NCBI GenBank assembly: GCA_025360105.1 | Contig: JANYCT010000072.1 | Location: 62,001 to 126,000 of the forward strand | From: Actinomycetes bacterium | GTDB taxonomy: Bacteria; Actinomycetota; Acidimicrobiia; Acidimicrobiales; Ilumatobacteraceae | DNA: 64,000 bases | Reading direction: 5' to 3' | Part shown: positions 1,554-34,875 of the stretch, piece after piece | Layout of the letters: each line of letters begins with the position of its first letter | How positions within the stretch are numbered: position 1 is the stretch's first letter | Program-made: the position numbers and the translations under genes | The notes under the pieces: model-generated | What the model was told of the DNA's origin: nothing | Databases searched by the model: none | Seen by the model: the letters and a program-made list of their open reading frames with translations, nothing else

Positions 1554-1625
1554 CTGGGGAGCAAGGAATCGAACCCTGAATAACAGTACCAGAAACTGCT
1601 GTGTTGCCAGTTACACCACTCCCCA
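1554..1625 (-). tRNA. tRNA-Gln (CTG anticodon)
   Basis: On the minus strand a 72-nt cloverleaf starts TGGGGAG and its acceptor closes with CTCCCCA and discriminator G, giving the weak U1-A72 pair typical of bacterial tRNA-Gln. Anticodon stem GCAGT/ACTGT encloses loop TTCTGGT with anticodon CTG. The T-loop GGTTCGATTCC is intact. It lies 104 bases upstream of tRNA-Glu on the same strand, so both may be cotranscribed with gltX and the DUF218 gene. Confidence 0.93.
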
Positions 1626-21522: not shown

Positions 21523-21545
21523 GAGCCGCCCGAAAGGGGCGGCTC
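21523..21545 (-). terminator. Attenuator terminator upstream of cimA
   Basis: On the minus strand a perfect 9-bp stem GAGCCGCCC/GGGCGGCTC closes a 5-base loop and is followed by TTTCATTT. It sits 45 bases before the cimA ATG, between the leader peptide and the gene, so it must be read through for expression. Confidence 0.85.
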
Positions 21546-21547
21546 AG

Positions 21548-21574
21548 AGCGCACGTCGTGGGGTGACGTGCGCT
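21548..21574 (-). promoter_or_regulatory. Stop-codon-adjacent hairpin of the cimA leader
   Basis: A perfect 10-bp stem (AGCGCACGTC/GACGTGCGCT) with a 7-base loop. Its 5' arm begins inside the leader stop codon, so a ribosome on the Ile codons would cover it. It lies 2 bases before the terminator. It is the probable pause or anti-antiterminator hairpin; the exact alternative pairing is not resolved by eye. Confidence 0.75.
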
Positions 21575-21626
21575 AACGAATAATGATGATCCGGCCGGAG
21601 GCGTTGGGCGTGTTGAAGATCGTCAC
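21573..21626 (-). CDS. Isoleucine leader peptide of cimA
   Basis: A 17-residue ORF, MTIFNTPNASGRIIIIR, starting at GTG 21626. It holds five Ile codons, four of them consecutive (ATC ATC ATT ATT) just before Arg and the TAG stop. This is the layout of a transcription-attenuation leader that senses charged tRNA-Ile. Downstream follow a stop-adjacent hairpin, a terminator, and cimA, the first dedicated enzyme of this isoleucine route. The GTG lies exactly 7 bases after a -10-like hexamer, so the mRNA is probably leaderless. An in-frame ATG at 21635 is an alternative start but overlaps the -10 element. Confidence 0.88.
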   Translation of the reverse strand: MTIFNTPNASGRIIIIR

Positions 21627-21633
21627 AGCGCAC

Positions 21634-21662
21634 ATTGTGCCGTGAGAAGTGCGTCCCGTCAA
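21634..21662 (-). promoter_or_regulatory. Promoter of the cimA leader
   Basis: On the minus strand TTGACG (21662-21657), a 17-base spacer, and CACAAT (21639-21634). Predicted start of transcription falls at or beside the leader GTG (21626). Confidence 0.7.
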
Positions 21663-21766
21663 CCTGTGAACTGTGGGCAACTTGTGAGGTAACGGTGGAT
21701 GAACAAGAAACTTCTGGGGATTACCCACTTTCTCGGTGGATAACCCTGTGACTTGAAAAATACCTC

Positions 21767-21795
21767 TTGACCTGCTGTTTTACACGGCGCATGAT
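21767..21795 (+). promoter_or_regulatory. Promoter-like site for the candidate ncRNA
   Basis: TTGACC and CATGAT are separated by exactly 17 bases, with a predicted start near 21802, just before the first hairpin of the structured segment. It is a moderate sequence match only. Confidence 0.5.
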
Positions 21796-21801
21796 CTCTC
21801 C

Positions 21802-22285
21802 ACACCGGTTCGCACGACGAACTGGCCCACCGGGGAAAACGAACGGCGCAAGCCGCAAGGCCGAACCCGATTGGGGTCAGATCGAAACGACGAATCGGGG
21901 GATGACCACAGCTCGGGCGGTCGGTGGCAACACCGGTCGTCAAGGAAAACCAAGGTTGTCGGCAGCAATGCCGGTGGCCGAGGGGATCTGCAGGACGAAG
22001 GCGGCAACGCCGGAAGCCTCGAGTCGCTGAAGGTGAACGCGCCGAACCGGGCAACCGGAGCGGTGTCGACACTGGAAGCCTTTGGGGGCGTCGAGCCGGG
22101 CAACCGGGGAGACAAGCCCGAAAAGCGGCTCACCCGCCGGAGGAGACTCCGACGGGTGAGATGTTGAACGAGCGAAGGGTAACACCGGGTGTTCGATCAG
22201 CGGTGGATCATCCCACGAGAGCCGCCCCAGGTGGCGCGCCGACCCCACCGTCGGCAGCGCAGCCTGGGGCGCTCGACTTTTTCAG
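21802..22285 (+). ncRNA. Candidate large structured noncoding RNA (unassigned)
   Basis: About 480 bases without a credible protein on either strand, lying between the cimA promoter and the ilvE 3' end. On the plus strand it carries hairpins capped by GNRA loops: CGGC-GCAA-GCCG (21844), CGGTG-GCAA-CACCG (21922), CGGCA-GCAA-TGCCG (21960), GGCG-GCAA-CGCC (22000), CCGG-GCAA-CCGG (22047 and 22096). There is also an 8-bp hairpin at 21805-21825 and a 13-bp hairpin with a GAGA loop at 22129-22160. A promoter-like site precedes it and a strong terminator ends it. On the minus strand the loops become TTGC, so the plus strand is the functional one. No RNase P, tmRNA, SRP or 6S hallmark was seen. End points are inferred. 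Confidence 0.6.
22216..22282 (+). terminator. Intrinsic terminator of the candidate ncRNA
   Basis: An outer stem GCCCCAGG/CCTGGGGC (22224-22231 with 22263-22270) encloses inner stems GCGC/GCGC and CCGAC/GTCGG, flanked by CGAG/CTCG and followed by five T at 22278-22282. On the minus strand no T-run follows, so it serves the plus strand. Confidence 0.8.
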
Positions 22286-22319
22286 CCCGGTTTCGTCTGT
22301 TGCGTCGAGTTGTTGGAGC

Positions 22320-23237
22320 TCAGACAGCGAGTTCGCACCAGTGCTTGTACTTGTCGACCCTGCCCTTGACGGCGTCGAGGTAAATCGACGCAATCGCTTG
22401 GGTCTTGGGCCCGGGGCACGGCACGGCGCGATCGTCGACGGAGTTGACGCTGCTGATCTCGGCAGCGGTACCGCACACGAAGATCTCCTCGGCGATGTAC
22501 AGATCGCTGCGTGCGAGGTTGTCGACGCGCACGTCGTAGCCGAGGTCGCGGGCGATGGTCATCACGCTGTTCTGCGTAATGCCCTCGAGCGCACCGGCGG
22601 AGATGGGCGGGGTGATCATGATGTCGTTGCGTACGGCGAAGATGTTCTCGCCAGTGCACTCGGCAACCAGACCGTTCGGGGCGAGCATGATGGCCTCGTC
22701 ATAACCGGCCTTGAGCGCTTCGACCTTGGCGAGTGACGAGTTCACGTAGTTGCCCACGGTCTTGGCCGCCGGCGGCATGGTGTTGTGGTCGTGGCGGGTC
22801 CATGAGCTGATCTTCATGCGCACGCCCTTACTCACCGCGTCGTCGCCCAAGTAGGCGCCCCACGGCCAGCAGGCAATGGCCACGTCAGTGCGGCACGGGA
22901 GAGTGTTGAGGCCCATCTCGCCATAGCCGTAGTACGCAATCGGACGCACGTAGCAGCCGGGCAGGCCCGTGCTGGCAACGGTGTCCTTGGTGGCCTGGAT
23001 GAGTTCGTCGACGGTGAAGGGAATCTCCATGCCAAGGATGTGCGCACTGTTGAACAAGCGCTTGATGTGCTCGGTGAGGCGGAACACCGCAGGGCCATCG
23101 TCGGTGGGGTAGGCGCGAATGCCCTCGAACACGCCGGTGCCGTAGTGCAATGTGTGGGTGAGCACATGGATCTGGGCCTTGTCCCAGTCGACGAGTTCGC
23201 CGTTCATCCAGATTTTCGGAGTGCTTTGGATCGGCAT
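22320..23237 (-). CDS. ilvE: Branched-chain amino-acid aminotransferase
   Basis: 305 residues, class-IV PLP enzyme of the short IlvE type. It makes Leu, Ile and Val from their 2-oxo acids with glutamate. Motifs: HYGTGVFEGIRAY near residue 31, the catalytic lysine in PPAAKTVGNYVNSSLAK (about 159), GYDEAIMLAPNGLVAEC, and GENIFAVRN. AAGGGG precedes the ATG at 23237. It lies downstream of leuB on the same strand, with about 100 bases between that include a short tandem repeat, so it may have its own promoter. Confidence 0.95.
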   Translation of the reverse strand: MPIQSTPKIWMNGELVDWDKAQIHVLTHTLHYGTGVFEGIRAYPTDDGPAVFRLTEHIKRLFNSAHILGMEIPFTVDELIQATKDTVASTGLPGCYVRPIAYYGYGEMGLNTLPCRTDVAIACWPWGAYLGDDAVSKGVRMKISSWTRHDHNTMPPAAKTVGNYVNSSLAKVEALKAGYDEAIMLAPNGLVAECTGENIFAVRNDIMITPPISAGALEGITQNSVMTIARDLGYDVRVDNLARSDLYIAEEIFVCGTAAEISSVNSVDDRAVPCPGPKTQAIASIYLDAVKGRVDKYKHWCELAV

Positions 23238-33447: not shown

Positions 33448-34875
33448 ATGACCCCGACGAGTCCCCAATCGACGCTCCCCGAGAAGGTGTGGGACCGCCA
33501 CGTGGTGCACAGCGCGTCCGGCGAGCCAGACCTGTTGTACATCGATCTCCATCTGGTGCACGAGGTCACGAGCCCGCAGGCTTTCGACGGTTTGCGCCTC
33601 AGCGGCCGCGGTATCCGCCGGCCCGATCTCACCATTGCGACCGAGGACCACAACGTTCCAACGGCGAACATCGATCAGCCGATCGAGGATCCCATTTCCG
33701 CGCGCCAGGTGCAGGTGCTCCGTGACAACACCGCCGAGTTCGGCATCACCAACTTCCCGATGGGCGATCCGCTGCAGGGCATCGTGCACGTGATTGCCCC
33801 CGAGCAGGGCCGCACCCTGCCGGGCATGACCGTGGTGTGCGGCGACAGCCACACCGCCACGCACGGCGCGTTCGGTGCGCTGGCCTTCGGCATCGGCACC
33901 AGCGAGGTCGAGCACGTGCTCGCCACCCAGACTCTTCCCCAGACGCGACCAAAGTGGATGGCCGTGAACGTGGAGGGCACGTTGCCCCCGGACGTCACCG
34001 CCAAGGACGTGATCCTTGCGATCATCGGCGAGATCGGTACTGGCGGCGGCATCGGCCATGTCATCGAATACCGCGGCTCGGCCATCCGTGCGCTCAGCAT
34101 GGAAGGTCGCATGACGGTGTGCAACATGAGCATCGAAGCGGGCGCGAAGGCCGGCCTCATTGCTCCCGACGACGTCACGTTCGAGTACCTGAAGGGTCGC
34201 GCCAACGCACCCACCGGCGAGCAATGGGACGCAGCCGTGGCCGACTGGCGCACGCTGCAATCCGATGCCGACGCGATATGGGACAAGGAAGTCTTCATCG
34301 ACGCAACGACGTTGACGCCACAGATCACTTGGGGCACGAACCCGGGCCAGGTCATCAGCATCGACGACACCGTGCCGTCGCCCGACAGCTACGACGACCC
34401 CACCACCCGTGAGACGGTCGTTCGGGCGCTCGAGTACATGGGCCTCAACGCTGGCACGCCGATTCGCGATGTCACCGTCGACACCGTGTTCATCGGAAGT
34501 TGCACGAACAGCCGCATCGAAGACCTGCGCGCTGCAGCCGCAGTGATGCGCGGCCACACTGTCACGGTCAAGCGGGTAATGGTTGTTCCGGGCAGCCACG
34601 CGGTGAAGGCGCAGGCCGAAGCCGAGGGTCTGCCCGCGATCTTCACTGCAGCCGGAGCGGATTGGCGCGAGCCGGGCTGCAGCATGTGCCTGGCGATGAA
34701 CCCCGACAAGCTCACCGTGGGCGAGCGCTCGGCCAGCACGAGCAACCGCAACTTCGAGGGCCGTCAGGGCCGCGGCGGGCGAACCCATCTGGTGTCGCCC
34801 GAAATCGCCGCCGCCACCGCCATTCTCGGCCACTTCGCCAGTCCGGCCGATCTCGAGAAAGCAGTCACGCAATGA
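33448..34875 (+). CDS. leuC: 3-Isopropylmalate dehydratase large subunit
   Basis: 475 residues, aconitase superfamily, the [4Fe-4S] subunit that isomerises 2- to 3-isopropylmalate with LeuD. Motifs: [44 protein letters not shown], the first cluster Cys in FIGSCTNSR and the paired Cys in [12 protein letters not shown], and [15 protein letters not shown]. It heads a leuCD operon; the stop overlaps leuD (ATGA). Control is probably by the divergent IclR protein, not by attenuation, since no leader ORF fits the short gap. Confidence 0.96.

Follow-up and report, generated by a model that had tools for sequence, protein, structure and literature searches.

To our knowledge, the large bacterial RNAs whose function is unknown number only a handful, and few of them can be linked to a cell process. 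The OLE, ROOL, and GOLLD families are represented in Rfam. 6S RNA has the shape of one long hairpin with a central bubble, and, on DNA, the DnaA-box clusters of oriC or datA consist of repeated TTRTCCACA-like sites at helical spacing, TTRTCCACA being the textbook DnaA box. We compare these systems with a locus in a stretch of 64,000 nucleotides from a genome of the family Ilumatobacteraceae (order Acidimicrobiales; contig JANYCT010000072.1, positions 62,001 to 126,000), which we refer to as the window.

The RNA predicted at this locus is, like OLE, ROOL, and GOLLD as portrayed in PMC12286853, hundreds of nucleotides long, with an elaborate predicted fold and a poorly understood function, but it has no match to their models and carries a DnaA-like promoter array. 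The same paper links GOLLD and ROOL to phages or tRNA islands, whereas the RNA here matched nothing in viral, phage, or plasmid sets: viral contigs contained 0 matches to two patterns derived from it, and there was no BLASTN match to it in the phage and plasmid collections. The smtA motif or "Soda Lake RNA," as presented in PMC11109978, is likewise a large, lineage-restricted, structured RNA of unknown function, but it is reported there only from Thioalkalivibrio, a different lineage, and it is by description rather than alignment that we set it apart. Ms1 and 6S, according to PMC9130861, resemble our RNA in being single structured RNA genes in Actinobacteria, but the HAD hydrolase and oxidoreductase given there as neighbors of Ms1 are absent here, where the neighbors are cimA, ilvE, and others.

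Within the window, a plus-strand unit lies between a cimA-like gene, which is divergent to it and encodes HMGL-like and LeuA dimer domains, and an ilvE-like gene, which is convergent and encodes a class IV aminotransferase. In this unit, a row of boxes is followed by a TTGACC-17-CATGAT promoter, about 480 strongly structured bases, and a long terminator hairpin ending in a run of five T (Table 1). The original prediction had proposed a new class of large structured RNA with a regular array of GCAA-capped hairpins, and the individual elements that it named, namely the promoter, a nested terminator, and a GAGA-capped 13-bp hairpin, are all in place. All six of its GCAA tetraloops were also recovered, on stems of 4 to 11 pairs, the first loop starting at 21848 and the others where the table gives them. 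By chance, the same stretch would hold a mean of 0.24 GNRA hairpins, and 0/200 dinucleotide shuffles reached six. The minus strand of this stretch has no GNRA hairpins, and the fold of the locus is far more stable relative to shuffles on the plus strand (z = -6.69) than on the minus strand (z = -2.64).

Table 1. Features of the RNA locus and its surroundings in the window
Feature	Position	Strand	Remark
Two tRNA genes	1377-1449 and 1554-1625	-	From the Rfam search of the window
DnaA-box-like phased array, plus-strand reading TGTGGAYAA	21672-21743	+	Boxes at 21672, 21683 (weak), 21694, 21715 (weak), 21735; those at 21672, 21694, and 21735 reach 8-9 of 9 against the widened consensus TTRTSCACM, the weak ones placed by position and eye
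AAAAATACC, immediately upstream of the promoter -35		+	Part of the promoter entry 21767-21795
Sigma-70-type promoter, TTGACC-17-CATGAT	21767-21795	+	Relatives keep the promoter
Predicted RNA, ~480 nt	21803-22282	+	The -10 gives the inferred start and the T run the end
5' domain, with helix P1 (21805-21812 paired to 21891-21899) as its closing stem	21805-21899	+	
GCAA-capped arm within the 5' domain	21844-21855	+	
Long-range helix P2, 5' strand	21900-21909	+	Predicted
Variable arm region, five GCAA-capped hairpins	21910-22128	+	Loops at 21927, 21965, 22004, 22051, 22100
Core hairpin H1, 13 pairs	22129-22160	+	GAGA cap in this member
Core helix H2 enclosing small hairpin H3, GGGUAACACC (22177-22186)	22163-22201	+	
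P2, 3' strand	22203-22213	+	Overlaps the GGTGGAT element (here 22202-22208), exact in 41/45 RNA cores
Long terminator hairpin and T run	22220-22282	+	Terminator-like hairpin, then five T, at 22256-22282

The neighboring cimA gene has upstream features of its own. A small leader open reading frame (window 21573-21635, minus strand) ends in four isoleucines (MCAVTIFNTPNASGRIIIIR) and is followed by an inverted repeat and terminator (21523-21590), an arrangement that resembles attenuation of cimA by a leader peptide. By eye, 9/11 relatives that do not have the RNA retain the ATGATGAT part of this leader.

Comparison among relatives placed the conserved part of the RNA in its 3' domain, which comprises H1, H2/H3, and the terminator stem. 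In an alignment of 12 sequences made from sequence only, with no structure used, both-sided changes were found in 15/41 predicted pairs. We built one covariance model of this 3' core from 12 sequences (R1) and a second from 45 (R2); the 45 core loci are among the matches listed, plus L015 and L022, and are not every match. When the model is used to align the 45 sequences, 95.6% of cells are paired, compared with 31-40% in slid controls, and 33/41 core pairs change on both sides with pairing kept, compared with 16.9 in shuffles (181 both-sided change cells against 42), although this alignment was fitted to its own model, so the counts lean toward that model. The 3' domain is thus a conserved core held by compensating changes, and the expectation that stems would be preserved in this way held for both sets of sequences. 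Its smallest hairpin, H3, mostly has a UAAC loop, and G058 instead has a longer stem with UACG. The GGTGGAT element of the core also occurs within promoter boxes (21694 and 21735), and its partner strand in P2 varies more.

Stability points the same way beyond this one member. For 42 of the 45 loci, a transcript could be predicted, the other three (G004b, G106 [contig starts], and G020) having no promoter by pattern; two loci, G069 and G401, have two candidate promoters, of which the farther was used when viewing the repeated module of G137 described below, and the nearer from the comparison of promoter conservation onward. The predicted RNAs are 326 to 774 nt long in relatives, and the fold z score was below -2 in 42/42 homologous transcripts (mean, -6.06; 25 shuffles each), while the minus strand of the 5' part averaged -0.6. 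Open frames do exist in this stretch, but close homologues differ by single-base indels, which rules out a coding gene and agrees with the absence of a protein-like frame noted at the outset; substitutions between G000 and G007 fall 26/20/23 over the three codon positions. We conclude that the locus is very likely a real structured-RNA gene.

The regular array of GCAA hairpins, by contrast, did not survive as the defining feature of this RNA, since the conserved part is the 3' domain and 6/42 transcripts have no 5' GNRA hairpin. The spacing of 38 to 49 bases is true of the member in the window, but arm number and spacing vary across the family. GNRA hairpins are nonetheless strongly enriched in the 5' part of the 42 transcripts (154 versus 10.9 expected, with 2 on the minus strand), as are UNCG hairpins (31 versus 2.3 expected); individual members carry from 0 to 13 GNRA arms, and some use UNCG caps. 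Inside P1, G001 and G006 are missing 73 bases that are present in G008, a near relative of both, and in G137 a long module appears twice (by eye). The GCAA arms are therefore the variable part of the RNA, partly replaced by UNCG caps, and we read them as stable, exchangeable extenders. Repeated hairpins of variable number, together with the doubled module of G137, could also suit a sponge of the RsmZ kind, in which the loops would titrate an RNA-binding protein. We consider this improbable, since arms that are interchangeable in cap type, switching between GNRA and UNCG or having no 5' GNRA hairpin at all, speak against a sponge for one loop sequence, and it is the 3' domain, not the arms, that is most conserved.

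Two alignments over the full length, one of 5 and one of 10 members, were built independently of each other. Both show P1 closing a 5' domain, then arms, H1, H2/H3, the terminator stem, and the long-range helix P2, with few both-sided changes (9/138 and 20/114 pairs). For P2, 3' strands taken from other members paired no worse than the own strand in a fraction of 0.33, compared with 0.51-0.55 for four control segments, and the own strand was in the best tenth in 10/42 members (controls, 0 to 4). P2 beat shuffles (10 of 200 or fewer) in only 13/42 single members, and in G001, G006, and G008 the best pairing partner is located elsewhere. On average, then, the comparisons support P2 as a long-range helix closing a multibranched domain.

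A search with Rfam 15 gave no match at gathering score in the RNA, whether across the window or in 21600-22500 at E values up to 10, and only tRNAs outside the RNA reach that score. The RNA of 29 relatives likewise gave no gathering-score match (10 searched at E up to 5 and 19 at E up to 1), so the proposal of a new class, rather than a known family, stands against this database. The RNA could still belong to a known family and have diverged beyond the reach of the models, and weak sub-threshold matches do touch its terminator region or core, namely F6 (E = 1.3), Ms_IGR-8 (0.29), BjrC68 (0.31), and SrbA (0.4). However, these all fall far short of the gathering scores and point to a different family from one member to the next, and RNase P RNA (RF00010) has no match in the RNA and one match elsewhere in each of 7/7 genomes; we regard a missed family as very unlikely. 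Neither tmRNA nor SRP RNA has an Rfam match at the locus, in keeping with the original observation that hallmarks of these three RNAs were not found. Mimicry of the 16S rRNA 3' end was also discarded: the local alignment was reached in 14/300 shuffles for G000 and 2/300 for G006, a weak signal from the only two members tested, and 16S itself was found in just 3/6 genomes. No clear likeness to rRNA promoters was seen for the promoter of the RNA, and literature searches, as far as the texts were available, returned nothing on this RNA.

A different possibility is that Acidimicrobiales use this RNA in the place of 6S or Ms1, so that it would adjust transcription by binding RNA polymerase. The 6S model (RF00013) has no match in the RNA and is silent in 7/7 genomes, which counts in favor of this reading, but it also fails in other Actinobacteria (control, Corynebacterium glutamicum), so this silence says little. 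Ms1 is widespread in other Actinobacteria, and the text of PMC9130861 contains no mention of "Acidimicrobi-"; against the idea, the neighbors differ from those of Ms1, as noted above. The predicted fold, moreover, is multibranched and not a single long hairpin with a central bubble. We therefore judge a 6S or Ms1 counterpart unlikely, and prefer to see the RNA as a new family of large structured noncoding RNAs, a kind that is itself known, and as one with an unusual promoter.

In a BLASTN comparison, matches at an E value of 0.01 occurred in 21/61 relatives, the strong ones beside cimA and ilvE within the genus, while the weakest were short and, by context, not homologues. With R1, the RNA was found in 69/150 genomes of the family (41/76 among the better genomes), 68 of these 69 at E values of 1.4e-13 or better and the remaining one, G005, at 0.0017. 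Each of these 69 genomes has one locus, except G004, which has it on two contigs. The RNA loci on these contigs (C283 and C200) of a single assembly differ from each other, which may reflect a strain mixture. In the class, R1 matched 23/296 genomes at an E value of 0.1. R2 matched 49/347 genomes of the order at an E value of 0.01, 33 of them at E < 1e-10 and in seven families, and 24/395 genomes of the class at 0.001, all 24 in Acidimicrobiales. Of its matches in 9/296 genomes of the phylum, eight belong to the family, and the ninth (G845, outside the class; E = 1e-5) was judged false, having neither box array nor core. Weaker matches appeared at E values of 1e-5 to 0.01 in the order and, in G237, G263, and G391 from other families of the class, at 0.02-0.1, and no match outside the order in the class and phylum searches was strong or survived inspection. 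As far as seen, then, this is a free-standing, normally single-copy RNA gene restricted to the order Acidimicrobiales. The R1 search of 150 genomes did not find the RNA in many members of the family, including genera whose genomes measure 1.5 to 2.2 Mb, and such bacteria can therefore do without it; the assembly of G002, from the same genus, has neither the RNA nor cimA.

The neighborhood bears on how the RNA might act. cimA lies upstream in 35/39 loci of the family, contig ends cutting 3 of the other 4, but in 0/6 loci of other families, where neighbors (named by eye) differ and yet box array, promoter, and RNA are still together. Given that promoter and RNA stay together while their neighbors change, the RNA most likely acts in trans. 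An attenuator of cimA or a leader of ilvE is ruled out by orientation and by the absence of cimA in other families. Separately, in G022, G018, and G029 (L010, L011, and L012), the RNA is followed, ahead of any ilvE, by a frame that by eye resembles an agmatinase/ureohydrolase.

The promoter is the other feature that travels with the RNA. Boxes and a TTGAC promoter, both outside the model, lie upstream of 14/15 order-level loci inspected by eye, G604 beginning at a contig end. Measured from the -35, the boxes most often start at -32, -52, -73, -84, and -96, one or two helical turns apart and in the same direction. Sites agreeing with TTRTCCACA at 8 or more of 9 positions number 75 in 5,250 bp upstream of the promoters and 15 in the other 122,410 bp of the loci, a 117-fold enrichment, and the densest such cluster is upstream of the RNA promoter in 34/42 loci. 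Among 30 draws of a shuffled consensus, one reached 70-fold, but with the densest cluster there in only 5/42 loci, and the next reached 6.7. A widened consensus, chosen after seeing the arrays, gave 143 and 127 sites and the densest cluster there in 39/42 loci; within the window, just three array boxes reach 8 of 9, even by this consensus widened after the fact. A second three-box DnaA-like cluster lies at window position 33503, by the widened consensus. Exact TTGTCCACA sites occur at the dnaA gene in 6/6 genomes, and loose boxes of the same form are found downstream of dnaA in several genomes.

These promoters carry a cluster of DnaA-box-like sites at fixed helical phase, as would be expected of a DnaA-controlled promoter, and we think that DnaA-type control of the RNA promoter is the probable reading of these motifs. 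The papers covered by our literature searches described no promoter architecture of this type. The array shares repeated TTRTCCACA-like sites and helical spacing with oriC and datA, but it sits at a fixed distance upstream of the RNA promoter, and the 1.4 to 2.1 Mb that separate it from dnaA in four one-contig genomes rule out a dnaA-linked oriC. A wider regulon was also rejected: the exact 16-base box element, with up to 2 mismatches allowed, was found in G000 at the RNA locus only and had no shared second target in four genomes, by a pattern that misses true sites (the promoter of G069 itself was unmatched).

The array might instead be the functional element, a DnaA-titrating site like datA, with the RNA secondary. 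Eleven family genomes without the RNA have a cimA flank that can be read, and three of them keep DnaA-like boxes between cimA and ilvE (G032, L140; G013, L142; and G009, L143), so a separate role of the DNA array is possible, but by eye the other 8/11 have lost the array as well. Since the RNA pairs covary across the order and the boxes keep a fixed distance to the promoter, we give a primarily datA-like site little credence.

Our overall reading, which we hold with moderate confidence, is a free-standing, trans-acting structured RNA gene with a conserved promoter and terminator, perhaps coupled to DnaA and perhaps architectural. A DnaA oligomer, or a protein with the same taste in sites, would load on the phased row beside the -35 and would raise or lower transcription. 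It seems reasonably likely, judging from the boxes, that a DnaA oligomer sets transcription in this way, so that RNA output would follow replication or growth. The RNA would fold during synthesis, P2 closing once the 3' domain appears, and the terminator would release a compact RNA. The conserved 3' domain with P2 would then bind a protein or a second copy of the RNA, while the interchangeable arms would serve as stable extenders, as in OLE, ROOL, and GOLLD. We put this architectural role, with the 3' domain and P2 as the binding part and the arms as extenders, at slightly under an even chance. The full combination, in which a DnaA oligomer on a phased promoter array would govern the synthesis of a large architectural RNA of a new class and so couple it to chromosome replication in Acidimicrobiales, is a tentative proposal that we consider possible but rather doubtful as a whole.

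The RNA has many relatives and a core defined by its sequence, one domain is naturally deleted in some members, and the promoter is defined and comes with a candidate regulator; its structure and its proposed link to replication are therefore directly testable. If the proposal is true, Acidimicrobiales would possess a structured RNA that is coupled to chromosome replication.
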